A stretch of 21,221 bases of DNA from a virus: the IMG/VR virus record IMGVR_UViG_3300021357_000291, positions 1 to 21,221 of that record, one strand, 5' to 3'. How positions within the stretch are numbered: the first letter of the stretch is position 1; the number at the start of each line of letters is the position of its first letter. Under the pieces are notes generated by a model that was given only the letters and a program-made list of their open reading frames with translations, had not been told where the DNA came from and made no database searches. The position numbers were made by a program, and so were the translations under genes. This document shows, piece by piece, positions 4,244-17,730 of this stretch.

Positions 4244-5001
4244 TTCGAATCTCCTTTGTTAGCCCGTGTTAAATCCTGGATGCCAACCAAAACGCTATCC
4301 CAATCAGGCGGTTCAATAACTGGTTGCTTGTTTTCAGAGCGTGGAACCTTGAAGTCCTTTAATACTTCATCCACTTCATCGCGCAAAGCTGATAATTGCT
4401 TGTGCATATCAGCAATGCGCTTTTCGGCGTCGACCTCGAACGGCAACCAAAAATGGGACCGTGTGCCAAGCGCCCTTCGCAGAGCCTTGGCGTTTGCTGG
4501 GACTGCAACAGCGGAAATCTCCAATAATTCCTGCTTCTTGAAAAGCAAACCGCCGGGTCTTTGATTAGGCGATTGGTCTTTTCTCGGCAGTTCCTCGAAT
4601 TCGAAAACCCTGAATCCCACCGAAACAGCTCTCATGAATCCACGTTCGTACTTGCCCTTGATCAGCTTGGCGAAATCATCATCATCATCCCAGATGGCTG
4701 ACCCCAGCAGTTGTTTTCCTTCTACGTGCACATTGTTCCAAAGCCCGATCGCAGGAAAGGTCTGGTCATGCATATAGAGAAACACTGGATTCTTTTTGAA
4801 ATTCACCAAGTCCCAGCCGGAAGCGCTGATGATATCGCCAGCGCGGTCTTCGGATTCCTCTGAGGCAATGAAAACCATTGGCTCCCCAGGCCTGCCCTCA
4901 ATTTTCGTCCCTTCGGCACGATACAAGACCGGCGCCGATTCAAGCCCTTTCCGGTATTGTTCCAGGGCTTCCAGTTCTTCTTCTCTCAGTTGGTCAGGCA
5001 A
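4240..5001 (-). CDS. HK97-type prohead serine protease
   Basis: A 253-residue protein with the HK97 protease fold. His78 in FLYMHDQ, Ser127 in AVSVGF and Glu161 in LLEISAVAVPANAKAL sit at the conserved positions of this family, with the typical upstream 'ASEESEDRAGDIISASGWDL' type segment (about 46-65). It cleaves the capsid scaffold domain during maturation. The C-terminal ~80 residues are charged and coiled (KRIADMHKQLSALRDEVDEV), possibly a scaffold extension. The start is TTG at 5001: the frame is closed just upstream by TGA and offers no ATG, and GGAGAG precedes the TTG by about 8 nt. The stop overlaps the capsid ATG. Confidence 0.88.
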   Translation of the reverse strand: MPDQLREEELEALEQYRKGLESAPVLYRAEGTKIEGRPGEPMVFIASEESEDRAGDIISASGWDLVNFKKNPVFLYMHDQTFPAIGLWNNVHVEGKQLLGSAIWDDDDDFAKLIKGKYERGFMRAVSVGFRVFEFEELPRKDQSPNQRPGGLLFKKQELLEISAVAVPANAKALRRALGTRSHFWLPFEVDAEKRIADMHKQLSALRDEVDEVLKDFKVPRSENKQPVIEPPDWDSVLVGIQDLTRANKGDSK

Positions 5002-5253: not shown

Positions 5254-5805
5254 CTATGGCAGCAGTTCTTTCAGAAGATGTATGCAGGCATCGTGGGCAA
5301 CCTCAACCGGTCCATATTCCGTCATCTCAAGCACTACTGCGGATTGGCAATATTGCAGAGCTTCTCCCCCTCTGGAACCGAGCAAGCCTAGAATTGAAAT
5401 ATCTCGCTGTAGTGATTCAGCTTTCTGCAAGACAGATAAGATATTCGGAGACCGGCTCGAACCAGATATCACTATCAGCGCGTCGCCAAAAACAGCCTGA
5501 AACTCGAAAAGTCTAGAAAACACCTCGGCATAGGAATAATCATTAGCTATAGCGGTCAGGCAGGCGCTATCCGCTGTTAAGTCTACGGCCCGGAAATTTA
5601 CCTCTCTCAAGTGCAGAGTCAGATGCGCAGCATTGGCGCATGACCCGCCGTTGCCAGCTATATAGACTGTATTCTTCCGCGTTCTGATTAACCGAAGCTT
5701 CTCGGCCATGAGGAGCAATGACTCAGCGTCAATAAGAAACAGAGCACGGCTGTATTCAATCAGCCGCTCTCTCAGCATAGAAAGCTCGGATGCTACTGAT
5801 GACAT
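5254..5805 (-). CDS. GmhA-like SIS-domain phosphosugar isomerase
   Basis: An SIS-fold protein of about 183 residues. GNGGSCANAAH matches the phosphate-binding loop of sedoheptulose-7-phosphate isomerase (GmhA), and the central blocks AIANDYSYAEVFSR, VISGSSRSPNILSVL and LGLLGSRGG follow GmhA closely. GmhA converts sedoheptulose 7-phosphate to heptose 7-phosphate, the first committed step of nucleotide-heptose synthesis. By eye alignment to E. coli GmhA metal/catalytic residues H61, E65, Q172, H180, this protein has His, His, Glu, His (67, 71, 174, 182 counted from the 5823 GTG), so the acidic ligand seems to have moved. The gene overlaps the aminotransferase. I prefer ATG 5805; GTG 5823 and ATG 5778 are alternatives, none with a strong ribosome site. 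It is the last cargo gene. Confidence 0.82.
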   Translation of the reverse strand: MSSVASELSMLRERLIEYSRALFLIDAESLLLMAEKLRLIRTRKNTVYIAGNGGSCANAAHLTLHLREVNFRAVDLTADSACLTAIANDYSYAEVFSRLFEFQAVFGDALIVISGSSRSPNILSVLQKAESLQRDISILGLLGSRGGEALQYCQSAVVLEMTEYGPVEVAHDACIHLLKELLP

Positions 5806-6901
5806 ATTGGATTTGGTCCTCACTCAAATATTCGTGCACCGGCAATGACAAAATCCGGTCGGCTTGCTCCTCGGCCTTTGGCAGACTCCCACGGCGGTAG
5901 CCCAGGAACTCATAGCCTTTTTGTAAGTGGATTGGGATGGGGTAATGGATTTTGGTCTCGATGCCACGGTTGGCAAGGAAGGCCATAAGTTGCCGTCGGT
6001 ATGAGACCTGCACGACGAAAGTATGGTACGCTTGTCGGACTGAACTGCCAGGAGGGTCAAGCGGCGGCAGGAGCACGTCAGGAGCCAGCGCCTCTAAGCC
6101 TTGGCGGTACTGTCGGGCGTTGGCGTTGCGTCGTGCTGTGATGTAGTCCAGCTGCTCCAACAGGTGCCAAGCTGCGATGGCTTGCAGCGTGTCCAAACGG
6201 CTATTGATGCCCGCCACTGTAACGTGGTCTCGATCAACTAGGCCATGATTGCGGTAGAGCCGCATCCATTCGGCCCAGTCGTCGTTGTCGGTGACAATCA
6301 TTCCGCCATCGCCGCAGGCATGGACGTTTTTGAGAGGATGCAGGCTGTAAGCGGCGATATGGCTCAGTTTGGCCGAGGACTGGCCGTTGTAAGTCGCCCC
6401 GATGCTCTGGCAAGCGTCCCGCAGAATCCAGGTACCGTAAAGTCCCGCATCACGCCATCCATGCACGGCCGGTCGGCCGGTGAGGTCCACCGGGATGATG
6501 GCCTTGGTCTTGTCCGTCAGCAATCCGCTCACCTGTGTCATATCTATCAGGTAATCATCGCCCACGTCACAGAATATGGGCCTAGCGCCCACGGCTACGA
6601 TAGCCCCGACGGTGGAGACAAAACTGTTGGGCACTGTTATGACTTCATCCTCAGGGCCGACGCCGAGGATCTTGAGGGCGATTATAAGGGCATCGGTGCC
6701 GCTGTTGACGCCTATGGCGTGTTTCATGTTGCAGACTTCCGCCCAGCGCCGCTCCAGTCGTTCCACGGCTGGGCCCAATGTGAACCAGCCCCGTTCCAAC
6801 TCTTGCCGCCACTCCGTCAGGATGGCCTTACCAACTTCGCCATCCGGCGCAAGTTGCTGGTCAAGGTAGCTATACGGAACTTTCTGCGCCACGTTTACCA
6901 T
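5756..6901 (-). CDS. DegT/DnrJ/EryC1/StrS-family PLP aminotransferase
   Basis: A 381-residue fold-type I PLP enzyme of the sugar aminotransferase family. Seen in order: GVNSGTDAL (64-72) for PLP phosphate binding, PNSFVSTVGAI (91-101), RDACQSIGA (161-169) with the Asp that pairs with the pyridine nitrogen, the Schiff-base Lys191 in SLHPLKNVHACGDGG, and the C-terminal FVVQ...YPIPIHLQ segment. Members transaminate keto-sugar nucleotides to amino sugars, usually with glutamate as donor; a dehydrating minority exists but keeps His in place of this Lys. It starts 3 nt after the epimerase stop and its last ~50 nt overlap the isomerase gene. It implies that the cargo's sugar is, or is accompanied by, an amino sugar. 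Family is clear; substrate is unknown. Confidence 0.92.
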   Translation of the reverse strand: MVNVAQKVPYSYLDQQLAPDGEVGKAILTEWRQELERGWFTLGPAVERLERRWAEVCNMKHAIGVNSGTDALIIALKILGVGPEDEVITVPNSFVSTVGAIVAVGARPIFCDVGDDYLIDMTQVSGLLTDKTKAIIPVDLTGRPAVHGWRDAGLYGTWILRDACQSIGATYNGQSSAKLSHIAAYSLHPLKNVHACGDGGMIVTDNDDWAEWMRLYRNHGLVDRDHVTVAGINSRLDTLQAIAAWHLLEQLDYITARRNANARQYRQGLEALAPDVLLPPLDPPGSSVRQAYHTFVVQVSYRRQLMAFLANRGIETKIHYPIPIHLQKGYEFLGYRRGSLPKAEEQADRILSLPVHEYLSEDQIQYVISSIRAFYAERAAD

Positions 6902-6904
6902 CGT

Positions 6905-7882
6905 CTATTGCTCCCGCATCATCGGCGCCATACGCCTATTGTTGTACCATAGGTCCGAGTTTGGGTCTGCGATGTGCCCGGCCTGGAACCAGGCCAGATT
7001 GTCTCGCACTGCATCCTCGAGGGTGCGCCGGGGTTTGAATCCCAAAGTGTTGCGCAGTTTTGCCGCACTCATGCGATAACTCCGTGGGTCGCGTTTGTCG
7101 GCGTCAACCTGGATGTCGCCCCCCGCTACCTTCTGGACGATGCGGGCTATCTCCAGAGCGGTGTGGTTCCCCGCGGTGATGTTGAATATCTCACGGTTTA
7201 CCATAGCGGTGGGTGTATTCAACAGACGTGTGAATAGCTCGACTACGTCGGCGACATGGACGTTAGTCCGGTACTGGTCGCCACCATGCACCGTAATAAC
7301 CTTGTCGAAGTACGCCTGTTTACTGAAAATATTAACAATAGTGTCCAAACGCATCCGGGGCGCGGGGCCGCACAACGTGGCCGACCGCACAATCACGGCA
7401 GGAGTTAGGCTTGTGTTGGCCAGCACCATCTTCTCTTGTCCCCACTTCTGCAACCCATATTGGGTCTGAGGCCTCGGCGTCATCGTCTCGTCAGCGGGGG
7501 AGCCATCGGTGTTGCCATATACACTGGAGGATGACATAAGGATGAGTTGTCGCACATTATGGGCGTCGCAGAGAACCAGGAGACCCATCATAGCGTCGCA
7601 ATTGATTTGCCTCGCCTTCTCTACATTCTGTGCCACGAGCTCATCTGTCACGATCCCAGCTAGGTGGACCACGTCAGTTACGCCCTCCATTGCTCGTCCC
7701 AAGGAGTCCCAATCCCGTATATCGCCCTGCACATGCTCTACGTTTGGCGTTCCAGCGATGGCATTCCCGAAGGTCTGGCTGTCATAGGCCCGCACGGGCC
7801 AATAGTTAGCTAACGCTGGCACCAACGCGGTGCCAACGTAGCCGGTTCCACCGGTGACGAGGATAAGTCTGTCTTCAGCCAC
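6905..7882 (-). CDS. NAD(P)-dependent nucleotide-sugar epimerase/dehydratase (extended SDR)
   Basis: A 325-residue extended short-chain dehydrogenase. The N-terminal GGTGYVG (11-17) binds NAD(P), GDIRD (53-57) is the usual adenine-side motif, the catalytic Ser is in SSSSVYG (117-123), and Tyr142 and Lys146 form YGLQK. Homologues act on nucleotide sugars such as UDP-hexoses, and HldD, which epimerises ADP-heptose, is a member of the superfamily. The length is normal. The start is GTG 7882 preceded by GGTGGAGCA; it lies 73 nt inside the upstream kinase gene. In this context it could epimerise an activated heptose or prepare a keto sugar for the adjacent aminotransferase. UDP-glucose 4-epimerase-like activity cannot be excluded. 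Confidence 0.9.
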   Translation of the reverse strand: MAEDRLILVTGGTGYVGTALVPALANYWPVRAYDSQTFGNAIAGTPNVEHVQGDIRDWDSLGRAMEGVTDVVHLAGIVTDELVAQNVEKARQINCDAMMGLLVLCDAHNVRQLILMSSSSVYGNTDGSPADETMTPRPQTQYGLQKWGQEKMVLANTSLTPAVIVRSATLCGPAPRMRLDTIVNIFSKQAYFDKVITVHGGDQYRTNVHVADVVELFTRLLNTPTAMVNREIFNITAGNHTALEIARIVQKVAGGDIQVDADKRDPRSYRMSAAKLRNTLGFKPRRTLEDAVRDNLAWFQAGHIADPNSDLWYNNRRMAPMMREQ

Positions 7883-8727
7883 TGCTCCACCTCTTCTCTC
7901 GTAACAACCTTATTGCCCATTTTCCCAACCTTGATGCCACCTGCGATATTGCCCACTAACCCAACCACCTCAGCAGGTGCGCCAGCCCATACTAGCAGTG
8001 CCGTCACCGCTAGGAATGCATCACCGGCGCCCATACGGTCCACGACCCGATCTGCCACTGCTGGCACCCAGACTCTTTTGGCACCATTGATCACCAAACA
8101 GCCCTCATGACCGAGTGTGACAGCAAACATTTCAGTGCCCATTCGTTCAGCTTGTCTTCGCGCCAAAGATTCAATATCACTATAACGATCAGCACAAGCG
8201 AGACGTAATTCAACCTCATCCACCACTACATAATCGGCGCGAGGCCATTTGGTGAGAAGATTGAACCCCCAATTAGCTGAGTTACTTTGGACGGTCAGGG
8301 CGAGAAAAGACTGATGCGATATTTTATAGACCGCTTCCGCTCCCAAAAGACCGTGTCCGTAATCAGCAATCAGTAAAATATCGCATGGCGGAAACACCCC
8401 TGGAGACTCCGGTATTTGGATATTTTCGACTATAGAGAATAGAGTTTGTCTAAAGGGATGCTCCACGTAGCGTTGTTTCAGAACCGGGGTAAGATGTGTG
8501 TCCCGATAACACACGCTTTTGGCAAAAGCTCCGGCATGGGCAGCAACAATCCATCCCCCGCCACGGTAATCGGTAGTGCCGATGGGAGTAAAAGTTACGA
8601 TTGATTCCTTCGCACTTTTGCCCAGAGGTCGCACATGAATATAACGGTCAATGATGGGTTCGCCAATCACAACAACGTTAGCTTCTGCCGCCCTGTCAAG
8701 CCAACCCCGTATATCGGACGCTAACAT
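7810..8727 (-). CDS. PfkB-family sugar kinase, HldE/HldA kinase-domain-like
   Basis: A 305-residue ribokinase-superfamily enzyme. It has an N-terminal IGEPIIDRYIHV strand, YRGGGWIVAAHAGAFA (54-69) in place of the GG..NVA substrate motif, ADYGHGLL (121-128), and the catalytic DRMGAGDAF (230-238) with the Asp base at 236. The gene order (separate nucleotidyltransferase, kinase, then epimerase) mirrors nucleotide-heptose synthesis, in which the kinase phosphorylates heptose 7-phosphate at C1. The substrate-side stretch QSNSANWGFN (147-156) differs from the canonical HldE 'DPKG' region, so the substrate may differ. The C-terminal ~25 residues (PVEPATLAPRW) overlap the epimerase start and look like an added tail. 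Fructose- or ribose-type kinases are less likely given the neighbours. Confidence 0.85.
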   Translation of the reverse strand: MLASDIRGWLDRAAEANVVVIGEPIIDRYIHVRPLGKSAKESIVTFTPIGTTDYRGGGWIVAAHAGAFAKSVCYRDTHLTPVLKQRYVEHPFRQTLFSIVENIQIPESPGVFPPCDILLIADYGHGLLGAEAVYKISHQSFLALTVQSNSANWGFNLLTKWPRADYVVVDEVELRLACADRYSDIESLARRQAERMGTEMFAVTLGHEGCLVINGAKRVWVPAVADRVVDRMGAGDAFLAVTALLVWAGAPAEVVGLVGNIAGGIKVGKMGNKVVTREEVEQWLKTDLSSSPVEPATLAPRWCQR

Positions 8728-8736
8728 ATGATGGCT

Positions 8737-9222
8737 TCAGATGTAATAGGGGAATTGTGAGTTGGTAGTGAGGCCTATACGATCAATGAGTTCGGTAGAA
8801 CTTTGTTTGGCACCATTAGTGAACCGCAGGCAACCGCCGATAGCTTCTACTGCCCGCCTCTCGGTATCCAGATTTCCTGCGTGGTCTTCTCCGGCAGCAT
8901 AGTCCGGACCTTTGACATATACAGAGGGTCTCAGAGTTTGAATGAGTTCCACAGCCGATGATGAATCCATAATGATTACGTAGTCTACGAATTTTAAGGC
9001 GTCCAACAAAATCGCCCGTTGATATTCTGGAAACAACGGGCGCCCGGGGCCCTTTTCTATGTGGCGGTCGCCAGTGACCCCCACTACCAGAATGTCCCCC
9101 ATAGCTTTTGCTTGGCTGAGATGGTTAATATGACCGACATGCAGCAGATCGAAGCAACCGACGGAAAGAACGATACGCATACCTCCGTGCTTTTCAACCA
9201 ACTCCGCAAGACTGGTAATCAT
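8737..9222 (-). CDS. HldE/RfaE2-type nucleotidyltransferase (cytidylyltransferase fold)
   Basis: A protein of about 161 residues with the nucleotidyltransferase signature GCFDLLHVGH (22-31), including the HxGH motif that binds the nucleotide phosphates. It continues through GDILVVGVTGD, RPLFPEYQRAILLDALKFVDYV and YVKGPDYA, matching the adenylyltransferase half of HldE, which joins heptose 1-phosphate to ATP to form ADP-heptose. Kinase and nucleotidyltransferase are separate genes here, as in HldA/HldC systems. I prefer ATG 9222, after the upstream stop; ATG 9252 would overlap the upstream gene by 22 nt. Glycerol-3-phosphate cytidylyltransferase is an alternative of the same fold, less likely given the kinase and isomerase neighbours. 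Confidence 0.85.
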   Translation of the reverse strand: MITSLAELVEKHGGMRIVLSVGCFDLLHVGHINHLSQAKAMGDILVVGVTGDRHIEKGPGRPLFPEYQRAILLDALKFVDYVIIMDSSSAVELIQTLRPSVYVKGPDYAAGEDHAGNLDTERRAVEAIGGCLRFTNGAKQSSTELIDRIGLTTNSQFPYYI

Positions 9223-9230
9223 CGATAGGA

Positions 9231-9914
9231 TTACTTCACCACAATGCTGCATCGAGCATTGTCCGGCATCTTCGAGAGCTCTTCGATTATGTTGGCCCTC
9301 ATGTCGGACGGCGGTCTGAGCAACGTGACCTGAACATCGGTGTCCTGATATAGGTTAACCCCACAGGATGCCAAATACTCAAAGATATAGGCCTCCTCGC
9401 TGACAATCAACGGGTCGGTGAAGATACGGCAACCGGCCAATCGCGCGACTCTCAGGTCCAGCAAAAGGCAATTGGTGGTGTGCCATTGAAGACGCTGAAT
9501 GCCCTGGTTCGGATAGTAAGCGGGCCAGGATACTCGGCGAAACTTGTCTACCGTGGTGAACGAGCTTTGGTCGAACCAAGGAACGATGCATAGCCGGTTC
9601 CGCTCAACCAGTTTCTTGATAGTGTCTGGATCACTCAGCAGCACGTCGTTATCAAGAATGAGAATATGGCTGGCATTGTTATTTAAGGCACTCATTATGG
9701 CCTGGTTCCGCATGGCTCCCAAACCTTGATACGGTTTGATGCACAGATTTCCCACACTGCCCAGGGCGCCAGTCCAGTCCATTTCCCAGATGCGTTTAGC
9801 CGCTGCGGTCGCCGCCTCTTTGACACCAGGCATGAAATTATCACCCATGAAAGTGATAAAGACATTGGGCAGATCCGAGATTGCTTCGCCTTCTATCATT
9901 TTGGGTGTTGTCAT
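9231..9914 (-). CDS. GT-A-like glycosyltransferase (paralogue 3)
   Basis: A 227-residue protein related to two other genes of the block. It has an N-terminal VFITFMGDNF strand, YQGLGAMRNQAIMSAL (62-77) and a DXD-like DND at 88-90 in LILDNDVLL, the expected nucleotide-sugar and metal site of GT-A enzymes, then a hydrophobic segment TNCLLLDLRVARLAG and an acidic EEAYIFEY near residue 180. It is the most divergent and shortest of the three and has no transmembrane segment, so it should be cytoplasmic. It sits between the radical SAM gene and the nucleotidyltransferase. Sugar donor and acceptor are unknown. Confidence 0.7.
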   Translation of the reverse strand: MTTPKMIEGEAISDLPNVFITFMGDNFMPGVKEAATAAAKRIWEMDWTGALGSVGNLCIKPYQGLGAMRNQAIMSALNNNASHILILDNDVLLSDPDTIKKLVERNRLCIVPWFDQSSFTTVDKFRRVSWPAYYPNQGIQRLQWHTTNCLLLDLRVARLAGCRIFTDPLIVSEEAYIFEYLASCGVNLYQDTDVQVTLLRPPSDMRANIIEELSKMPDNARCSIVVK

Positions 9915-9946
9915 GCTCTATCCGTGTCCCATAAGCCTGACAGTTC

Positions 9947-11104
9947 TCACAGAAAATCGATATGCAACGGCGCCGGACTTTCGGCTTTCCGCAAAGATTC
10001 TATCCCTTTCATGTGCCTGTCTAATGCCGTGTTAGCGAGATGCTGGATGCAAAGCGCCCCGCACATGCGCTGTGCATCAAATTGGTCACTCGCTAGGTAA
10101 TGCATGACCTCCCAATAGCGGTCCGACTGCCAGATGTCCCACCAACGCTGCTCGCAGATATTGCCGATGTGAAACTTGGCATACCGGTCATTGAAGAGCA
10201 TCCCGCAAGGCGCAACGAGACCGGACCCAGACATCTGAATCAGGAATGGCGGACCGTAACAACGCTGATAGGATCGGGCATTCGTCTCCGTTTCCGCATC
10301 CCTGATTTTATTCCATTTGACTGCGACCCGGTAACGGTCAGTGGATAAGCTTTCGGCCTGGCGGAGTAGATCATGCAGTTCGTTATATTCCTGATATTTG
10401 ATTCCCAAAGTCCGGTATTCGTCATCGGAGCAGTGCTTGATTACTGCATAATCAACGCCAAGCTCTTTCCCCAATTCAGCAAAAGGTAGAATCTGGTCCG
10501 AGTCCTTGGGCATCAAGACCATCTGGATGCCCAGAGTAACACTTAGATTTCTTTCCTGTTTAATACGGACGGCGGCGCGCACATTAGAAATGACTCTTTC
10601 CCAGAACGATGGTTTGACTCCCATGATTTGGCAATATCGCTGCTGAGTGCCGCCGGAGATGTTGAAGCGAAGATATGAAAGACATGGGAGCACCTGGGAC
10701 AGCAGAGATTCAGTGAAGCGAAATCCGTTTGTTCCTGATGCCATAGACAACCCGAGGCTATACCCTTGGGTGATGGTATGACCATAGATCGGTGAGACGA
10801 GGCTTTCTCCGTCGCTGACGAGTGAAATTCCTCTGACTCCCATTCGAGCCGAATCTTCCAGAAACGCATCGATGACCCCCTCAGTTATTTCTTGCCGGTC
10901 GTTTTCCTGCATCTGGGCATAACAAAATCCGCAGGCCGCATCGCAGGCCCTGGTGAGAGCCATATCGATCGTGATCGGCGCAATTCGTTCCCCACGCTCC
11001 CAAGCCTGTACTCGGTCCATATGCCACGCGAGTTTGTGGCCATCGAGCACCATCTTGGTATGGTCTTCAATGGGGGACAAGACATTATGTGGGACGTGTT
11101 TCAC
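9947..11104 (-). CDS. Radical SAM protein with SPASM domain
   Basis: A 385-residue radical SAM enzyme. The N-terminal CDAACGFC (C54, C58, C61; C-x3-C-x2-C) binds the SAM-cleaving 4Fe-4S cluster, followed by TIM-barrel segments such as GISLVSDGESL. The C-terminus holds Cys282, 300, 317, 348 and 352 in a SPASM arrangement (APCGMLF, NICEQRWWDIW, MCGALC) that would carry an auxiliary Fe-S cluster. SPASM enzymes modify peptides, proteins or sugars; members also occur in sugar and peptidyl-modification clusters. The GTG start at 11104 overlaps the preceding small gene by 20 nt. It might modify a sugar intermediate or a virion protein; the substrate is not visible from the sequence. Confidence 0.88.
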   Translation of the reverse strand: MKHVPHNVLSPIEDHTKMVLDGHKLAWHMDRVQAWERGERIAPITIDMALTRACDAACGFCYAQMQENDRQEITEGVIDAFLEDSARMGVRGISLVSDGESLVSPIYGHTITQGYSLGLSMASGTNGFRFTESLLSQVLPCLSYLRFNISGGTQQRYCQIMGVKPSFWERVISNVRAAVRIKQERNLSVTLGIQMVLMPKDSDQILPFAELGKELGVDYAVIKHCSDDEYRTLGIKYQEYNELHDLLRQAESLSTDRYRVAVKWNKIRDAETETNARSYQRCYGPPFLIQMSGSGLVAPCGMLFNDRYAKFHIGNICEQRWWDIWQSDRYWEVMHYLASDQFDAQRMCGALCIQHLANTALDRHMKGIESLRKAESPAPLHIDFL

Positions 11105-11339
11105 TGAAGCTCACACCACGGAGTTTTTGTCTCAATTTATTCTGGTCAAGTTTTGGCTCCAACAATACTTCTAGGACGGGATTTACCTGACCCCTTAGCT
11201 GTTTTTCCAATGATAATAAACGCCGACCACGTTCGGCAGTCGGCAGATGCTCCGGCAATTTGACTATCACATAGCGATCCTTCAAGGCAACCAAGGTGCA
11301 CGTGCCGTTCAAATACGGCGTGATTTCGTCAGGCTCCAT
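11085..11339 (-). CDS. Small unknown protein
   Basis: An 84-residue protein with no recognised family. The N-terminal half reads as a short beta hairpin (GTCTLVALKDRYVIVKLPEH, residues 12-31) and the C-terminal half as a charged helix (ERGRRLLSLEKQL) followed by a Lys/Leu-rich helix. It follows the preceding small gene with a 1-nt gap, has AAGGCGG upstream of ATG 11339, and overlaps the radical SAM start, so it is probably translated. It could be a partner of the radical SAM enzyme, by analogy with small carrier or precursor proteins next to SPASM genes, but it lacks an obvious core-peptide motif. Confidence 0.55.
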   Translation of the reverse strand: MEPDEITPYLNGTCTLVALKDRYVIVKLPEHLPTAERGRRLLSLEKQLRGQVNPVLEVLLEPKLDQNKLRQKLRGVSFSETRPT

Positions 11340-11340
11340 G

Positions 11341-11535
11341 CTATGCCGCCTTTTTGGGCCGGCCTTTCTTTTTAACGACTATTGGCGGGATCATCTCTCC
11401 TGCCGTAGAGGCTTGCTGCTGCTGTAATGTCTCCAATATCTCGATTAACAACACGAAGCCCAGGACTTCATTCGGGGGAAGCCTGAATTGGTCCTTCAGC
11501 TCCGTGAGGGCCTCTCTATAATCCGCCGCTTTCAT
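11341..11535 (-). CDS. Small unknown protein with AT-hook-like basic tail
   Basis: A 64-residue protein. ATG 11535 overlaps the stop of the upstream glycosyltransferase as ATGA; a GTG at 11544 would add three residues. The body is a predicted helix (YREALTELKDQF, then VLGFVLLIEILETLQQQQAS) and the C-terminus is KKKGRPKKAA. GRPKK resembles an AT-hook core that binds the DNA minor groove or RNA, though such tails also arise by chance in small basic proteins. No catalytic residue is evident. Its role in the cargo is unknown. Confidence 0.55.
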   Translation of the reverse strand: MKAADYREALTELKDQFRLPPNEVLGFVLLIEILETLQQQQASTAGEMIPPIVVKKKGRPKKAA

Positions 11536-12305
11536 CGCTGCCACATAGCGTTCTGAATGGCTTCTTTCGGCGCTAATTGCTGGTAATTTCTTTTGATGTG
11601 GTCAAAAGGAAAATGGGGAGCGTTCTGTACTTTGACCACCGTATTCGTATCGACGATGGGATGGTGACCGGTCATGGCCAAGCGGTCGAAATGAAATTCC
11701 TCATCGGCTCCGCGGGCGTTATCCCAGAATGGCGTCAAAGCCCAAGGGAGAAAAATCTCAGTGCGCATCAGCAGACAAGACAGGAGCACGCTATGAGCTA
11801 CCAAAAGTCCGCCACCTTCCGGGTAACTAGCCTGCCTGATCCCATAATCCTTGCCGTCAATATACCGCACCAGAGGAGCAATAACTGGCATCTGCCATTC
11901 CTGAAGCTTCATTAGAGTGTCTGGTTCTGGAAGTATGTCGTTATCGACATACATCAACCATTCGAATCCTTCCCGGAGTGCCCGCATATAGGCCAGATTC
12001 CGCATTGTGCCCAGACCATCATAGGGTTCGTAGCAGCGGTCTTGCTCGGCATAAAAGCGGACCAGAATGCCGCCCTCTTGCCAGGAATGTTGCGCCATCG
12101 CCAGAACTGCCTCATAGCTCCCAGGATGCCAGTGCTTACCTATGGCGGCGATGATAGTAGAGCCTGGATAAAGATGCGGGCGCATCCCAGCTTTGGCTCT
12201 TTTATTCCATACCTCGGCCTGATGCTTGGTTTCCGCAGGACCGAAATAAAGCTCCGGCGCCAGAGTTGCAGCCCGGTAGACCGCTGGAGTCAGTTCGTCT
12301 ACCAA
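11532..12305 (-). CDS. GT-A-like glycosyltransferase (paralogue 2)
   Basis: A 257-residue protein. The core has IIAAIGKHW (50-59), EQDRCYEPYDGLGTMRN (88-104) and the DXD-like DND at 121-123 in YVDNDILPEPDT, then LQEWQMPVIAPLV and GADEEFHFD (about 206-214), where the acidic pair could serve as catalytic base. It is closely related to the gene at 14406-15482 (shared QDRC.xPYD.LGTMRN, WQMP..AP and GADE..HF). The fold suggests transfer of a sugar from a nucleotide donor. The start is TTG 12305, chosen because GGAGGG lies just upstream within the preceding gene. No membrane segment is visible. Donor and acceptor are unknown. Confidence 0.75.
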   Translation of the reverse strand: MVDELTPAVYRAATLAPELYFGPAETKHQAEVWNKRAKAGMRPHLYPGSTIIAAIGKHWHPGSYEAVLAMAQHSWQEGGILVRFYAEQDRCYEPYDGLGTMRNLAYMRALREGFEWLMYVDNDILPEPDTLMKLQEWQMPVIAPLVRYIDGKDYGIRQASYPEGGGLLVAHSVLLSCLLMRTEIFLPWALTPFWDNARGADEEFHFDRLAMTGHHPIVDTNTVVKVQNAPHFPFDHIKRNYQQLAPKEAIQNAMWQR

Positions 12306-12592
12306 TCGCCCTCCGTGAGGCCTAGCGGGCCCAATATCTCTGCTGGTATTTTGAAAGGCGTTCCATTGGTTTGTTCCCGTGTCTTCAGTTGCTTTCTGCC
12401 AGTCATCAAAATAACTTTCCAGTTCTCCGGGCTGAATCTGAGAATTGCGAGGGCATTAGGTTTCGATGATGATGGTGGACCATTCGAAGGGACGGGGCTT
12501 TTATGGAGGACCAGCATGACGCCAAGGGGATTTTCGTACAACTGGAAGAGATCGGAATATAGGTCAGGGCATTCGCTATCTAGTTCAGGCAT
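12299..12592 (-). CDS. Small protein, DUF3467-like beta-sandwich candidate
   Basis: A 97-residue protein starting at ATG 12592, with GAGG six nt upstream; a TTG at 12604 overlapping the upstream stop is less likely. It reads LYSDLFQLYENPLGVMLVLH (around residues 11-30), a proline/serine linker, ILRFSPENWKVILMTGRKQL, and ends GPLGLTEGDW. The layout (YSD.f....nP.gv.L.f near the N-terminus, then a helix ending R.QLK) resembles small phage and bacterial DUF3467-like proteins of unknown function. That comparison is from memory and tentative. It lies between the TPP-enzyme beta gene and a glycosyltransferase and overlaps the latter by 7 nt. Confidence 0.5.
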   Translation of the reverse strand: MPELDSECPDLYSDLFQLYENPLGVMLVLHKSPVPSNGPPSSSKPNALAILRFSPENWKVILMTGRKQLKTREQTNGTPFKIPAEILGPLGLTEGDW

Positions 12593-12600
12593 ATGTATCC

Positions 12601-13134
12601 TCAATCCAAATGTTCAACGATTAATGTTGACCCGGTATTGTGAACAGCGCGCTCGTAGACGAGGGGAATATATTCAGGAGTTGCAATATATTCCACCTGT
12701 ACAGCGGTCAAGAGTTTCAAAAAAGCGTCCGTATGATTCTGCGTATGTTGTGGCCCCGCATTCAAGGGCGTTTTAGAGCCGACCTTGGTTCGGATGATTA
12801 TTTTCGGGCGGAACTGGTTCCGGGACATCAGGGGCATTTTGTCAAGATGATTCACCAATTGGTTCATTGCCAAGAGGAGAAAATCCATGCGGGGATACAT
12901 GCTGATGGGCAGGAAACCTTGCAGGGCCAGGCCGATGCTCATTCCCATCTGGAGTTCCTCCGCCACCGGCAATTCCAGACGTTGAGAATTCGGCACTCCG
13001 TCGAGATGCTTGAACATGACATTGCCATCATATTTGACGTTTTGGCCAAGAAAGATCGCACCTGGCTGACCTGCCAACATCAGCATAGCTTGATTAAGTA
13101 GTTCATCGGTCCTTGTTTTCTGTCTGGTAGTCAT
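12601..13134 (-). CDS. TPP-dependent enzyme, E1-beta/transketolase pyrimidine-domain subunit (minimal)
   Basis: A 177-residue protein matching the pyrimidine-binding domain of 2-oxoacid dehydrogenase E1 beta and transketolase C-type subunits. The conserved Glu that activates thiamine diphosphate is Glu59 in LPVAEELQMG. It is followed by SIGLALQGFLPI, YPRMDFLLLAMNQLVNHLDKM and AGPQHTQNHTDAF (126-138). It ends at STLIVEHLD, where the pyrimidine domain normally ends, so the ~140-residue transketolase C-terminal domain of standard E1 beta (about 325 residues) is missing. It overlaps the alpha subunit gene as ATGA, implying a 1:1 complex. The likely role is C-C bond cleavage or formation on a keto acid or ketose. 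Confidence 0.82.
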   Translation of the reverse strand: MTTRQKTRTDELLNQAMLMLAGQPGAIFLGQNVKYDGNVMFKHLDGVPNSQRLELPVAEELQMGMSIGLALQGFLPISMYPRMDFLLLAMNQLVNHLDKMPLMSRNQFRPKIIIRTKVGSKTPLNAGPQHTQNHTDAFLKLLTAVQVEYIATPEYIPLVYERAVHNTGSTLIVEHLD

Positions 13135-13700
13135 CCGAAATTCACAAACTGCCCAATGCCCACATGCGGGAAGATACGTGTGTATTTATAGTAATGATAT
13201 TTGTTCTGTGCACCACACCCTCCCCCCCAGACCTCGCGTGTGGGTGTATTGGTTGAGACTCCGTTGTCCTCTACGACTATTGTTAGCGGGAGAACATGCC
13301 CAGCTGCATATCTCGCTGTTTCGTACCAGATTCCAGTCAGGGCAGTCATGTCCCCGATGAATGCCCAGACTCTTTCGGTCCCTTCGTTCCTTTTGATTCC
13401 CATCGCTAGACCACAAGCGATTGGAAGAATTCCGCCTACAATACTCGAAGAAATGAATCTGTGCTTTTCGCTCATGATATACATGCTGCGTCCGTCGAGA
13501 ATTTGTTGGAACAATTCTTCGGCTGGAATGCCCTTTAGTAACGCATGATAATGGCTCCGCCAGGTCGACAGGACCCAGTCCCGATCATCGACCCCTTTGA
13601 AAATTCGCAGGAGATCATCTTCATTGCCGCCGGACAGATGCACCGGCGCGTGAATTTGTTTCGCTAGAAACGCATCAATAACCCGTTGCTCGAAAGCCAT
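13131..13700 (-). CDS. TPP-dependent enzyme, E1-alpha-like diphosphate-binding subunit (minimal)
   Basis: A 189-residue protein (from ATG 13700, preceded by AAAAGGGGAG; ATG 13739 would add 13 residues and overlap the upstream gene). It follows E1 alpha: STWRSHYHALLKG (46-57), ISSSIVGGILPIACGLAMG (about 83-101) and the diphosphate/Mg motif from GDM (116-118) to EDNG (144-147), which replaces the usual GDG...ENNG. The catalytic site should form with the beta subunit. Standard E1 alpha chains are about 320-360 residues, so this one is reduced to the cofactor-binding core. It may supply a ketose such as sedoheptulose phosphate or modify a keto sugar. The substrate is unknown. Confidence 0.8.
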   Translation of the reverse strand: MAFEQRVIDAFLAKQIHAPVHLSGGNEDDLLRIFKGVDDRDWVLSTWRSHYHALLKGIPAEELFQQILDGRSMYIMSEKHRFISSSIVGGILPIACGLAMGIKRNEGTERVWAFIGDMTALTGIWYETARYAAGHVLPLTIVVEDNGVSTNTPTREVWGGGCGAQNKYHYYKYTRIFPHVGIGQFVNFG

Positions 13701-13722
13701 GAGCTCCCCTTTTGTTACTTTC

Positions 13723-14172
13723 TCACGAACGATTATCATTTTCTACCTGTGTCCGTAATTCCATCGCTCGGCTACTTAGCTCCAAGAGCTCCCGATACTG
13801 CCTGTGTTTGACCCCATATGGCGAAGCGTCCCCGCCAACAGGACTTTGAATCCCTTCCTCATCTTCAAACCAATACGAACAGGGTGTCGCCGCCACTTGC
13901 TCCGGGAATTCCGGAAATACTCGGCAAGCCTCGGGACGTTTATCGTAGATGGAGCAGCGGTCGTTCCTGTGTTTGGGGCATGGCACAAAAGAATCGGCGA
14001 TGATTTCTAAGCCAACTCCCTGCGGCGTGACGGCAGGTTTGAAACCACGGACGCTGAGGAATTCCCGGTCGCGGTCATTTGGTTCTTTGATGAACAAACG
14101 GGTGCGGTTAACTGAAAACATACAGCAGAAACCACAATGAATACATTCCCCTTTTCGTACCCATTTAACCAT
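13723..14172 (-). CDS. YkgJ-family CxxCxxCC metal-cluster protein
   Basis: A 149-residue protein beginning MVKWVRKGECIHCGFCC; Cys10, 13, 16 and 17 form the CxxCxxCC signature of the YkgJ/UPF0153 family, with further Cys at 65, 73, 83 and 98 in PCPKHRNDRCSIYDKRPEAC. Family members are thought to bind an Fe-S cluster or zinc; their activity is poorly defined. Most sit near other modification enzymes in genomes. Here it overlaps the upstream small CxxC gene by 8 nt and lies 22 nt before the TPP alpha gene. The length and Cys layout are normal for the family. It might assist the radical SAM enzyme or act on a glycan acceptor, but nothing in the sequence settles this. Confidence 0.82.
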   Translation of the reverse strand: MVKWVRKGECIHCGFCCMFSVNRTRLFIKEPNDRDREFLSVRGFKPAVTPQGVGLEIIADSFVPCPKHRNDRCSIYDKRPEACRVFPEFPEQVAATPCSYWFEDEEGIQSPVGGDASPYGVKHRQYRELLELSSRAMELRTQVENDNRS

Positions 14173-14413
14173 TGCCTAGGACTTCTCGCACAAATGACAG
14201 AACGGCAGAACCATCGGTCGTCCCCGAAACCTGGCGTAATATTTCCTGAATGGACAACGATCCCGTATGGTAGGTCCCATGGTGCCGGCTTATAATTTCA
14301 ATCCCGTCATGCGTGATTTCAGCCAGTTTCTGATGCCCTGGATGGGCGCAGGAACAGACATTGCAGAATAAATTTATCGGCTTACTATTTGTGCCGTTGC
14401 CTCGATTACGCAT
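14165..14413 (-). CDS. Small Cys/His protein (zinc-knuckle-like)
   Basis: An 82-residue protein. I place the start at ATG 14413, 8 nt inside the glycosyltransferase gene; an upstream ATG at 14452 would overlap it by 47 nt. FCNVCSCAHPGHQKLAEI (about residues 16-33) has a C-x2-C-x-C..H..H cluster able to bind a metal, followed by ISRHHGTYHTGSLS, which adds three His. The C-terminal part is a short helix (EILRQV) and tail. It may be a small zinc-binding protein, resembling phage-encoded zinc-ribbon proteins. It is followed directly by the CxxCxxCC protein. No function is assigned. Confidence 0.55.
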   Translation of the reverse strand: MRNRGNGTNSKPINLFCNVCSCAHPGHQKLAEITHDGIEIISRHHGTYHTGSLSIQEILRQVSGTTDGSAVLSFVREVLGNG

Positions 14414-15482
14414 TGCCAGCTCGAGAAAACGCCAAGCCACGCGCGAGATCATCCGGATTTATACCTACCGGGAGCTTGCCGTTAACTTGGGGAAGTGTTG
14501 AGAGCGCTTTTTGGGCCTCCTTCTGGGCCTGCTCCGCTTTAACTAGGAAAGGTGCGTACTCTCCATCCTTGATCCATGGACTATTGGGATCTATCGGACG
14601 GCGATCTGGCGGCTCAACAAACCGTTCTATTTTCTGTTGCAGCATGATTTCTCGGTCACCCTTGCTAGCGCGAACGAATTCCACGAGCCCTGCTGTAAGT
14701 TCTGCTCGGTCGGATTCTATCAAAATCGTCCCTCGCCGTTGCAGGATGCCCGCCAATTTGCTGCTTAAAATATTTGCCGCCTGCTCCACGTCAGCCATAG
14801 AACCGCTACTTAGACGATTCAAAGCCAAGGGATACAAAGGCCGTCCGCCCACCTCTAGCTGCAAGGTCGTGTCGATATAGAGATGGTATCCGTAGTATTG
14901 GAGTAGATTGAAATGATAGCCTTCATCGGCACCGATCGCATCGCGCCAGAATGTAGGTCCCGTTTGCCGAAACACCGTTGTATTGAACAGCAGCATCGAC
15001 AAGACCGCCCATTTTGCGCGTTGCAACCCACTATTGACTTGTATATGCCCCGGTCCGAATAACCGGTTGCCAGTGCCCGGTTCAGCGACAAAGGGCGCCA
15101 CAATGGGCATCTGCCACTGCAATAAACGCAAGAGGGTGTCCTTCTCTGGTTTGACATCATTGTCGATGTAGAGAATGAATTGGAACCCTTCCCCTAAAGC
15201 GGTTAATATCGCCTCATTGCGCATGGTCCCCAGGGCATCGTAGGGATTAAAACAACGGTCTTGAATCTCGGAGAGTGCCGCATAAACGCCCTGAGTCTGG
15301 GTGTGGTCAATCATGTCGACGACTTTGTTCCAACTGCTCTGCCGCCAATGATTCCCCATCGCCGCCACCAGAACTGAATTCGGTCGGATGTGGGTCCACG
15401 AACGGTCCATCTGTTGATGGGCAGCAGACATTTCGGGATTAGAGGGATAGCTGCGCAGTACCGTGTGGCGCGACGAAGGCAA
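14406..15482 (-). CDS. GT-A-like glycosyltransferase with C-terminal extension (paralogue 1)
   Basis: A 358-residue protein, first gene of the cargo. The catalytic core (about 35-225) has VLVAAMGNHW, EIQDRCFNPYDALGTMRN, DXD-like DND at 107-109 in YIDNDVKPEKDT, LLQWQMPIVAPFV, and GADEGYHFN (about 183-191). It is the closest relative of the gene at 11532-12305. About 125 further residues (from GGRPLYPLALNRL) contain charged helices (EQAANILSSKLAGILQRRG; KAEQAQKEAQKAL) absent from the other two and may mediate binding to partner or virion proteins. The start is uncertain: TTG 15482 has no clear ribosome site and the frame stays open upstream to the portal gene, where AAAGGG precedes an ATT. Confidence 0.75.
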   Translation of the reverse strand: MPSSRHTVLRSYPSNPEMSAAHQQMDRSWTHIRPNSVLVAAMGNHWRQSSWNKVVDMIDHTQTQGVYAALSEIQDRCFNPYDALGTMRNEAILTALGEGFQFILYIDNDVKPEKDTLLRLLQWQMPIVAPFVAEPGTGNRLFGPGHIQVNSGLQRAKWAVLSMLLFNTTVFRQTGPTFWRDAIGADEGYHFNLLQYYGYHLYIDTTLQLEVGGRPLYPLALNRLSSGSMADVEQAANILSSKLAGILQRRGTILIESDRAELTAGLVEFVRASKGDREIMLQQKIERFVEPPDRRPIDPNSPWIKDGEYAPFLVKAEQAQKEAQKALSTLPQVNGKLPVGINPDDLARGLAFSRAGNA

Positions 15483-15531: not shown

Positions 15532-17730
15532 TTACCCTTTGCCGTTGGTTTGGATGACTGATACTATCGGTGGCGTCCAAGCCCGTCGTGAAATGACTGG
15601 GGCTACGGTGCATCGGCAATTGATCGCATTTCCAGGGCTGCCTTCCCCCGGATGGCTGATTGCCTCGCCGCCAACCAGGAAATTGGCTTCCACTTCCACC
15701 ACCTGCCGGTGAGCTTCCAGATGCGCATCACGCACCCTGGCATCTAAGGTTGCCAGCCACATTTTCCGCTCAACTACGCCGCTTTGGCGGTAGGCTTCAA
15801 CCGCACCTTCGTTCATGGCCGCCTGCGTCTCCGTTCTGGCGATGCGTTCTGACCGCACGGCATCGGAGAAATCAAAGACGCGCTCTACTCGCATTTGAAT
15901 TTGTTTGATGTTTTCCTGTTGCTGGATCGCTTCGGTCAGTTCCTCCATCAACAGACGCCCAGTTTCCTCGTTTACGCGGCCTGCCCAAAACTCTACCCGC
16001 TGACTTAGCCAGGGTTGTATCTTCTCCAAATCCAAGGATACTCCTAGAGAAAAGGCATTATTCTGTTGTGTCGCCCCGAGAACAAGAGCATCAATAAAAA
16101 GCGGGCGCCCCCGTTGGCTGAAGCGGTGTATCCACTTTGCTAAGTTGAAGATGTCCAGTATAGGCAAGGCTTTAATATTCCAATTGTCGGCATTGCGCTG
16201 CAGCCGCACACGTTGCATTACCTCCGTTTGTTGCGCCCGAAACAAACTGCGCTGTAATCGCAGAAACTCGGTCTCAATCTTGTCGAGCCCTCGATCGTGC
16301 AATTCGAGGACTTTCTCGATAAAACTATCGCTGAATATCGGCTCCTGATACTTGCGCCATTCACCATTACCAGGTAATAACCGTTTTAGACTAGGAATCA
16401 ACAACCGCCGTTCCGGTTCTTCTTCCTGGCCCATGGCTGGCGCTAAGGGCGCAGCGATCCCGTCCTCCGGAATCTCAATCGGTCGCACCGTGAAGGGCAA
16501 CCAAGCCACATCGCCCCAAGGCACAGGTTCCAAGCCTTGTAATTCTCGCACCTCATTTATCGTGCGAATACCAGCTTGCACCTCTTTGATATGCCGCTCG
16601 GCGGCAGCATTGGCGTCCTCTTGCAGGGCCTCGATAACAGTGGTGTCAAAGGCGCACTCCACGTCATCACCGAACATCGGCAAAAGCATTTCATTGAGTT
16701 CATCTTGGATGAACCGCAAGTGAGGCACCATAGCGGAACGCCAAAATATCCGTTCCGCCGCGTCGACATTCTCATAGGTGGCCTTTTCTAGATCGCCAAG
16801 CATAATTTTAGGCACACTATACACGCGGGCAACATCCTCAAGAGACCACCGCAAAGCCGCCATGAACTCCATGTCGCGGTTCGTCAATCCCAAGTTTTTC
16901 ACATCGAAGTTGCCAGTGATAATCGGAATGTGGCTGTTCGCTGGCTGACTGTACCGTTGTTTCAGAGCCTCGCGGAACTCAGTGGCCTGATCCGCCGTCA
17001 TCGTCCCGTCCCGGGAGGCGAACGACAAATTGCCTGCCAAAATACCATTACGAAAGATGTTCCGGTTATGCTGCAGACCTTCGTGTCCCATGTCAATACT
17101 GAGACGGGCCGGTGCTATCGGTGAGAGGCCTGCGTATTCGTCCAGCGGGTTGAGCTGGCGCATCCAAATCACTTCGTCGGTGCGAAATGGGATGCGTCTG
17201 CCTATGCCGGACTGATACCAAAACCCTTCGATGTAATTAGCTTGGCTGGGGACAATGCGCATCCGGTCCGGACGCGGAATCCACACCTCGGTGGGGGGAC
17301 TGGCAGGACCAGCTTTTTTCAAAATCCAGAACACCGAGCCCCATAAATCGAGATAAATGCTCGTGGCCCGCAGCAGGTCGCCTTTGGTCCACCAGGGGTT
17401 GACCTTTGACAAAAGGATGGCAAGAGGATGGTCCGATGGAAGCTCTTCTCGATTGTCATCTTCCATGCGCCGGTAGACCTTCAAGGGCGCAGCCAACACC
17501 GAATCGGCACGGAGTTTTACCGCAGCATAGACAGCCGGATATTTGGCGTAATATTCCGCATAGGCCTGGGGCATCCAGTCAGTGCCAGTGCCCCAAGCCT
17601 CGGTGCGAGTATCGAGATAAGCGGGCCCTAGTTTGGGGATTTGCTTGCAGACGTGGGGGAAAGCGAAACGGCGAATACCAGGCAAGTTGAGGAGAGGCTG
17701 TAGCTCAGTGTTGCAAAGGGCGCATTGCAT
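15532..17730 (-). CDS. Portal protein fused to MuF-type minor head protein
   Basis: A 732-residue fusion. Residues ~50-440 are an HK97-family portal: YPAVYAAVKLRADSVLAAPL, DHPLAILLSKVNPWW, DEVIWMRQLNPLDEYAGLSP, RDMEFMAALRWSLEDVARVY and MLGDLEKATYENVD. The C-terminal part (about 590-720) is a MuF/phage head morphogenesis domain, shown by RIARTETQAAMNEGAVEAY, WLATLDARVRDAHLEAH and GNAINCRCTVAP. The portal forms the DNA entry ring; MuF proteins ride in the capsid. A preceding short segment (CALC at 3-6, HVC at 26-28) could bind zinc. ATG 17730 is 2 nt after the preceding stop but lacks a strong ribosome site; ATG at residue 52 is an alternative. Portal and MuF are separate genes in many phages. 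Confidence 0.9.
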   Translation of the reverse strand: MQCALCNTELQPLLNLPGIRRFAFPHVCKQIPKLGPAYLDTRTEAWGTGTDWMPQAYAEYYAKYPAVYAAVKLRADSVLAAPLKVYRRMEDDNREELPSDHPLAILLSKVNPWWTKGDLLRATSIYLDLWGSVFWILKKAGPASPPTEVWIPRPDRMRIVPSQANYIEGFWYQSGIGRRIPFRTDEVIWMRQLNPLDEYAGLSPIAPARLSIDMGHEGLQHNRNIFRNGILAGNLSFASRDGTMTADQATEFREALKQRYSQPANSHIPIITGNFDVKNLGLTNRDMEFMAALRWSLEDVARVYSVPKIMLGDLEKATYENVDAAERIFWRSAMVPHLRFIQDELNEMLLPMFGDDVECAFDTTVIEALQEDANAAAERHIKEVQAGIRTINEVRELQGLEPVPWGDVAWLPFTVRPIEIPEDGIAAPLAPAMGQEEEPERRLLIPSLKRLLPGNGEWRKYQEPIFSDSFIEKVLELHDRGLDKIETEFLRLQRSLFRAQQTEVMQRVRLQRNADNWNIKALPILDIFNLAKWIHRFSQRGRPLFIDALVLGATQQNNAFSLGVSLDLEKIQPWLSQRVEFWAGRVNEETGRLLMEELTEAIQQQENIKQIQMRVERVFDFSDAVRSERIARTETQAAMNEGAVEAYRQSGVVERKMWLATLDARVRDAHLEAHRQVVEVEANFLVGGEAISHPGEGSPGNAINCRCTVAPVISRRAWTPPIVSVIQTNGKG

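Follow-up and report, generated by a model that had tools for sequence, protein, structure and literature searches.

The 21,221-base virus record IMGVR_UViG_3300021357_000291 of IMG/VR, a fragment analysed here at its full length and called the window below, carries a block of sugar genes between its portal gene and its prohead protease gene. The core of this block, consisting of HldE-like and GmhA-like genes, a thiamine pyrophosphate (TPP) enzyme, the small protein hypD and a radical SAM enzyme (rSAM), was found, after removal of duplicates, in 57 viral contigs. In 31 of them a portal, TerL, protease or capsid gene lies within ~9 kb of the cassette, and in 12 such genes stand on both sides. 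The repeated placement of this cassette among the head genes of unrelated phages is the main new observation. Sugar biosynthesis by the cassette is well supported, and its product is very probably a modified heptose-like sugar activated as a nucleoside diphosphate. The block is read here as a phage-borne glycosylation cassette whose sugar most likely ends up on virion proteins; to this reading in its full form we give roughly even chances.

The block between portal and protease

Every gene in the window lies on the - strand, and in the order of transcription the genes are a DNA methylase, a small open reading frame (ORF), TerS, TerL, portal-MuF (15532-17730), the 16 co-oriented ORFs of the block (15482 down to 5254), the prohead protease (4240-5001), the capsid gene and neck/decoration genes. 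The original prediction had counted fourteen co-oriented, overlapping genes in the block; the shared orientation stands, but the count is 16, and overlap is found at 11 of the 15 internal junctions, which range from -73 to +32 bp. The last block gene is separated from the protease by 252 bp. That the block interrupts the order portal-protease-capsid was confirmed by the portal, Mu_F, S78/PHROG and PF05065 matches of the flanking genes, and the three GT-A-like glycosyltransferases (GTs), the TPP enzyme and the radical SAM enzyme that had been named are all present by profile matches and motifs. In transcription order the features are:

15532..17730, - strand: portal fused to MuF domain, upstream boundary (PF04860, E=6.6e-63; Mu_F PF04233, E=1.5e-17)
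14406..15482, - strand: GT1, GT-A glycosyltransferase, first after the portal (Anp1, E=0.003; DND motif; AlphaFold2 (AF2) core pLDDT ~90)
14165..14452, - strand: hypA, small ORF, function unassigned (0 relatives among fetched loci)
13723..14172, - strand: YkgJ-type CxxCxxCC metal-binding protein (PF03692, E=7e-7; 0 relatives in other cassettes)
13131..13739, - strand: TPPa, short E1-alpha-like subunit (E1_dh, E=3.7e-15; phrog_34187, E=8e-46; TPP motif GD-(x)-N)
12601..13134, - strand: TPPb, short E1-beta-like subunit lacking the C-terminal domain (Transket_pyr, E=1e-5; phrog_34187, E=1e-29; catalytic Glu and GPxHxQ retained)
12299..12604, - strand: hypB, small ORF, function unassigned (0 matches)
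11532..12305, - strand: GT2, paralogue of GT1 (38% identity to GT1)
11341..11544, - strand: hypC, small ORF, function unassigned (0 matches)
11085..11339, - strand: hypD, small conserved partner immediately upstream of rSAM (motif EVFLEPxxDxNxLRxxLRGV; 75 ORFs in 75 loci, some overlapping)
9947..11104, - strand: rSAM, radical SAM/SPASM enzyme, CxxxCxxC (PF04055, E=2e-9; PF13186, E=4e-6)
9231..9914, - strand: GT3, GT-A glycosyltransferase (Anp1, E=7.5e-6)
8737..9252, - strand: HldE domain II-like nucleotidyltransferase, HxGH (TIGR02199, E=4e-36)
7810..8727, - strand: HldE domain I-like PfkB sugar kinase, GAGD (TIGR02198, E=1e-18; fused to the nucleotidyltransferase in relatives)
6905..7882, - strand: short-chain dehydrogenase/reductase (SDR), NAD-dependent sugar epimerase/dehydratase (PF01370, E=2e-35)
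5756..6901, - strand: DegT/DnrJ/EryC1 pyridoxal phosphate (PLP) aminotransferase (PF01041, E=2e-92)
5254..5823, - strand: GmhA-like SIS phosphosugar isomerase, last before the protease (TIGR00441, E=4e-20, under the equivalog cut-off)
4240..5001, - strand: prohead protease, downstream boundary (S78 PF04586, E=1.9e-4; phrog_11321, E=4.5e-32; PHROG head-maturation protease, E=1.3e-15)
2762..4243, - strand: HK97-fold major capsid protein (PF05065, E=1.5e-11)

Profile searches with the GTs returned five more IMG/VR contigs that have GT1 and the block behind the portal; in L091-L095 a GT1 orthologue stands directly behind it. The recurrence in related phages that the original prediction had proposed to look for was seen in full maps of G001 and G003, both of which read portal, GT1, TPPa, TPPb, hypD, rSAM, kinase and nucleotidyltransferase (one fused gene in G001), SDR, DegT, SIS, protease and capsid; on the assumption of a circular contig G002 has this order too, and the truncated L094 and L095 also carry the block right behind portal and GT1. 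The capsid protein of the window is 46-51% identical to those of G001-G003. Since the same junctions occur in independent contigs at this distance, the block is no assembly chimera, the fault by which the prediction itself was to fall. A phage contig wrongly joined to a bacterial sugar cluster might be imagined, as the cassette is present on bacterial chromosomes too, yet most block genes are closest to one and the same set of phage relatives, and the chance of such an artefact is negligible. High-identity capsid relatives with sufficient upstream sequence mostly hold the SIS gene or more of the block (L202-L204, L212 and L215, partly the same contigs). Another of these high-identity relatives, L210, shows no cassette in the 10 kb before its capsid gene, and in the more distant L223, L240 and L245 (capsid ~39-49%) nothing but small ORFs separates terminase and protease. 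Not all capsid relatives, then, carry the block.

Beyond this lineage, single-protein scans of viral contigs returned nothing for TPPa and remote loci only for the portal, and queries built from alignments were needed. With the rSAM alignment 74 viral loci were found (~70 viral contigs), all but a few of them 44-65% identical. A set of 88 loci includes some that are parts of one contig; within 9 kb of them lay the HldE-like kinase/nucleotidyltransferase (65), TPPb (62), TPPa and SIS (55 each) and hypD (54), and the hypD and rSAM frames share 4 bp in ~18 cassettes. The settings span several portal types. While the window lineage runs from an HK97-type portal to the protease, G006 has TerL, cassette, portal and then a GT41 gene, and G007 has the cassette just upstream of the portal with GT41 behind it. 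Seven loci (L144, L146, L148, L149, L152, L153 and L166) have an SU10-type portal, the cassette, a methyltransferase, a GT and a gpT-like capsid gene; in L030, L140 and L164 a head-tail connector portal adjoins the cassette, and L172 and L191 have TerL, cassette and SU10-type portal. A sugar cargo co-oriented with virion genes, as originally described, thus recurs both at the same place and in or beside the packaging and head modules of unrelated phages.

In 50,697 GenBank phages GT1, hypD and the capsid protein had no match, and rSAM had remote matches only (~23% identity across the whole protein, or 31% across a short part of it). A 735-kb phage carries TPPb-rSAM-TPPa with such a remote rSAM. 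In L044 (9998-14398) TPPa-TPPb-rSAM stands in tandem twice, as if duplicated modules made two sugar modifications, and in L011 an 805-aa ORF (10347-12764) that lies upstream of an SU10-type portal and weakly matches Hint and LAGLIDADG is probably an intein in a packaging gene.

Cellular copies were also found. Of the genomes sampled, 25 of 296 from Nitrospirota and 19 of 398 from Pseudomonadota encode a close homologue of rSAM, the phylum labels being those of the genomes that held the starting loci. Contigs of 727 kb, 281 kb and 98 kb carry the complete set of SDR, SIS, HldE-like, TPPa, TPPb, hypD and rSAM genes, and a Nitrospirota contig of 31.7 kb has a similar set plus NeuB. The bacterial sets are flanked by more rSAM, GT2, ABC-transporter and sugar genes; they look like surface-glycan loci. 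The pathway thus exists in bacteria too, and the form that phages carry is a compact one. Four loci from the two phyla (L265, L267, L269 and L270) have the complete cassette together with a second rSAM beside the SDR gene, a glycan pathway that matched no described one.

Several further features of the window were noted. It contains no tRNA genes. The methylase (20053-21219) shortly before TerS is of the DNA N4/N6 type and may have a ParB-like N-terminal region, and similar methylases precede TerL/portal in L091-L094. The YkgJ-type protein and the small ORFs at 14165-14452, 12299-12604 and 11341-11544 are without a relative in any other fetched cassette.

The sugar pathway and its exchangeable TPP enzyme

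The heptose-like pathway of the original prediction is represented by a GmhA-like isomerase and an HldE-like kinase and nucleotidyltransferase, but this is not the standard ADP-heptose set. The best matches of kinase and nucleotidyltransferase are rfaE_dom_I and rfaE_dom_II, below the equivalog cut-offs, and the isomerase scores 72 bits against a TIGR00441 cut-off of 209. The SDR reaches 55.6 bits with the HldD model TIGR02197, whose cut-off is 274.6, and is outscored by the GalE and RmlB models. Active-site motifs are kept in the TPP pair (GD-(x)-N, the E1-beta Glu, GPxHxQ), PfkB kinase (GAGD), nucleotidyltransferase (HxGH), SDR (YxxxK), DegT (SxHPxK), radical SAM enzyme (CxxxCxxC) and GTs (DND). 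Among the enzymes checked the sole departure is in the GmhA-like isomerase, where the position of a catalytic Glu is His. The predicted structure of hypD had no fold match in the PDB, and rSAM homologues, even remote ones, share a conserved C-terminal F-[LVI] tail, mostly H-x-x-F-[LVI].

It can be hypothesized that the GmhA-like isomerase and the HldE-like kinase and nucleotidyltransferase would together yield a nucleotide-activated heptose-like sugar, with the radical SAM enzyme and hypD, the SDR and the aminotransferase making keto, deoxy and amino changes. The E1-type TPP enzyme, working without E2 and E3, would add a two-carbon unit, probably from pyruvate, to the keto form and give a branched-chain sugar. 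The history of the TPP slot bears on this last step. In its TPP pair the window shares 44-57% identity with cassettes of unrelated phages and no more than 29-37% with its own capsid relatives, whereas rSAM, DegT, SDR, GT1, hypD and the capsid protein are all closest to these relatives. In a tree the window falls into a short-E1 clade, split with 100/100 support from the full-length E1 clade of these relatives. At 17 loci, nearly all of them without E1 subunits, the slot is occupied by an acetolactate-synthase-superfamily protein, whose best PDB match is JanthE (8rph, E=2e-118). The slot is therefore held by three non-orthologous enzymes: a short E1, a full E1 and a JanthE/YerE-like carboligase. 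A 2025 review (PMC12247030) names YerE-like decarboxylases, E1-like alpha-KADH2 and split transketolases as the thiamine diphosphate (ThDP) enzymes for which use of ketone acceptors and branching of sugars is known or has been proposed, and JanthE is a YerE-like enzyme (PMC12247030, PMC12188165). The recruitment of two branching-type enzymes to one slot suggests that the cassette needs the chemistry that they share, in which a keto sugar receives a unit derived from a 2-oxo acid.

The slot enzymes have the marks of the ThDP carboligases that make branched-chain sugars, namely TPP cofactor motifs and membership of the E1-alpha/beta or decarboxylase superfamily, and the gene lies beside sugar-nucleotide genes. 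A pyruvate dehydrogenase complex was considered and rejected, with no lipoyl, E2 or E3 protein encoded in the block and E1 subunits short of full length (TPPa 202 aa; TPPb 177 aa, with the E1-beta C-terminal domain absent). Relatives of the short E1-alpha enzyme were found in at least 573 viral contigs (L011-L090), against 22 loci in a like scan of 85,000 cellular genomes; it is a largely viral family.

The chief chemical rival to branching, which concerns the product and not its acceptor, is that the TPP enzyme is a plain transketolase supplying sedoheptulose 7-phosphate for an unbranched plain or amino heptose. The heptose pathway does begin from a transketolase product, the cyanophage homologues are annotated as transketolases, and there are weak matches to transketolase N domains. 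The nearest characterised relatives, however, are E1-alpha/beta of 2-oxo acid dehydrogenases, the hosts already own a transketolase, and the slot is held elsewhere by a JanthE-like carboligase from a decarboxylase superfamily that is not known for transketolase activity. Because of this replacement we lean towards a carboligase, and consider the transketolase role rather improbable.

The probable acceptor of the sugar

A virion-protein acceptor is favoured here because of the position of the block, the folds of its GTs and the GT41 genes beside the cassette in other phages. Where virion glycosylation systems have a phage-encoded glycosyltransferase, the block has three GT-A proteins. GT1-GT3 are related (29-38% identity where compared pairwise) and stay below the Pfam cut-off of 28.8 bits for Anp1 (GT62), with 26.0, 18.7 and 17.4 bits. 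The best PDB folds for the AF2 model of GT1 are COLGALT1 (a collagen hydroxylysine galactosyltransferase), LH3 and STIV A197, with the viral R699 also high. These soluble GT-A enzymes would transfer the sugar onto protein, most likely head or neck proteins made from the same late transcript. Late co-expression, as originally proposed, may hold; glycosylation of protein or virion would fit the COLGALT1-like fold of GT1 and the GT41 genes of four phages, and the choice between virion and host surface, which the prediction had left between the two, is not decided by them.

GT41, the O-GlcNAc-transferase family, was seen in four cassette-bearing phages (L077:6628-8304; G006, as L127:1446-3146; G007:18099-19652; G009:13082-14107), with TPR repeats in L077 and directly behind the portal in G006 and G007. 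Right behind the capsid gene of the window, 2182-2688 and 1540-2166 encode Thr/Ser/Gly-rich small proteins with 20-23% Ser+Thr; the product of 2182-2688, which is conserved at this place in G001-G003, is a possible decoration protein and glycan acceptor.

The sugar could instead be destined for the host surface, as a lipopolysaccharide (LPS), capsule or S-layer glycan, during late infection or lysogeny, and there block superinfection or the sticking of virions to debris. Sugar clusters of cyanophages (PMC7824862) and pelagimyophages (PMC7029224) have been read in this way in print, related TPP/kinase/nucleotidyltransferase/isomerase sets occur in P-TIM68 and S-SM2, and the cellular copies of the cassette lie in glycan clusters. 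Yet profile scans and a check of the sequences found no export, lipid-carrier, flippase or polymerase gene in the block and no clear membrane protein or membrane-bound enzyme (two borderline hydrophobic stretches both fall within soluble enzyme families), although host machinery could serve. The location among packaging and head genes, and not in a tail-fibre or plasticity region, recurs in unrelated phages, and a protein-glycosyltransferase family, GT41, accompanies the cassette in four of them. A host-surface acceptor thus seems doubtful, while still a serious contender.

Glycosylation of phage DNA bases against restriction is unlikely, and indeed very much so. Phage GTs hypermodifying DNA are known (Pyle et al. 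2024, as cited in PMC12619734), but a thymidylate-synthase/hydroxymethylase homologue (PF00303) was absent from 25 of 26 cassette-bearing records (the window itself is a fragment), and TET/JBP (PF12851) was found in none of the 26 by a search that had no positive control. Moreover, the fold of GT1 resembles protein GTs, and the cassette sits among head genes.

Several findings weigh against a heptose-type sugar placed on virion proteins. With the profiles used, no structural gene was detected near about half of the cassettes, and many contigs are short. The GT1 model is confident in part (mean pLDDT 69.5; GT-A core ~90) and its fold matches are remote (TM-score ~0.35). In cells the homologous genes belong to glycan clusters, whose usual acceptor is a glycan of the surface. 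No HAD domain, as in the GmhB phosphatase, was found in any block protein. Finally, of the catalytic residues of GmhA (Glu65 and His180) the C-terminal His is kept, but the Glu65 position is taken by His in the window and by either His or Asp elsewhere among the cassettes. Sedoheptulose 7-phosphate may therefore not be the substrate of this enzyme.

A more specific proposal, which we put forward tentatively and as the less probable one, is that a pathway adapted to viruses makes a C-branched heptose, possibly an amino one, for the decoration of virion proteins. Its genes would form a dedicated head-sugar operon that moved between unrelated tailed phages, with non-homologous enzymes of the same chemistry replacing one another at the branching step. 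If the virion reading is right, many uncultured phages would devote ~5-10 kb of a 40-70 kb genome to a rare particle sugar of their own, with bearing on particle stability, on recognition by hosts and antibodies, and on phage glycobiology. That three TPP enzymes have been exchanged in a single slot gives comparative evidence for the reaction at that step, and the cassettes offer viral carboligases and a radical SAM family with directly testable chemistry.

Comparison with known systems

The ADP-heptose pathway GmhA-HldE-GmhB-HldD shares with the cassette the homologues of GmhA and of the HldE kinase and nucleotidyltransferase, whereas the cassette is without GmhB, has an SDR that is not HldD, and adds TPP, rSAM and DegT enzymes. 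The YerE/JanthE-like and alpha-KADH2 carboligases (PMC12247030, PMC12188165) are both represented by types that alternate in the cassette slot; the known ones act on CDP- or TDP-activated keto-deoxyhexoses in LPS or antibiotics, while the cassette is viral and its partner genes are of the heptose type.

Among phages, P-TIM68 of Prochlorococcus and S-SM2 of Synechococcus have a fused E1-like TPP enzyme 37-41% identical to that of the window and, side by side as in the cassette, an HldE-like kinase and nucleotidyltransferase, a phosphoheptose isomerase, an SDR and GTs. Their clusters, which have been read as surface-polysaccharide modification (Iyer et al. 2021, PMC7824862), differ in belonging to T4-like phages, in lying away from the head genes and in having no rSAM/hypD pair of this family. 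The host-recognition cluster of pelagimyophages (PMC7029224) shares GTs, rfaE-like genes and radical SAM gene cassettes, but lies in the tail-fibre region of T4-like phages, with reported GTs mostly of GT8. The block in the window is not in such a T4-like plasticity or host-recognition region; HK97-type portal, protease and capsid genes flank it. In mycobacteriophages, one or more phage GTs decorate capsid and tail-tube subunits (Freeman et al. 2023, as cited in PMC12619734), and the citing text does not mention a dedicated sugar-synthesis pathway like that of the cassette.

The original prediction knew of no described system with this combination at this position, and the open-licence literature searched agrees, describing neither a phage combination of heptose, rSAM and portal genes nor the cassette in head modules. 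The combination is, however, not unique to the window: a part of it occurs in cyanophages and pelagimyophages, and a fuller set in dozens of metagenomic phages and on bacterial chromosomes. The parts of the cassette were already known, and the set within head modules is a new arrangement of phage glycosylation.

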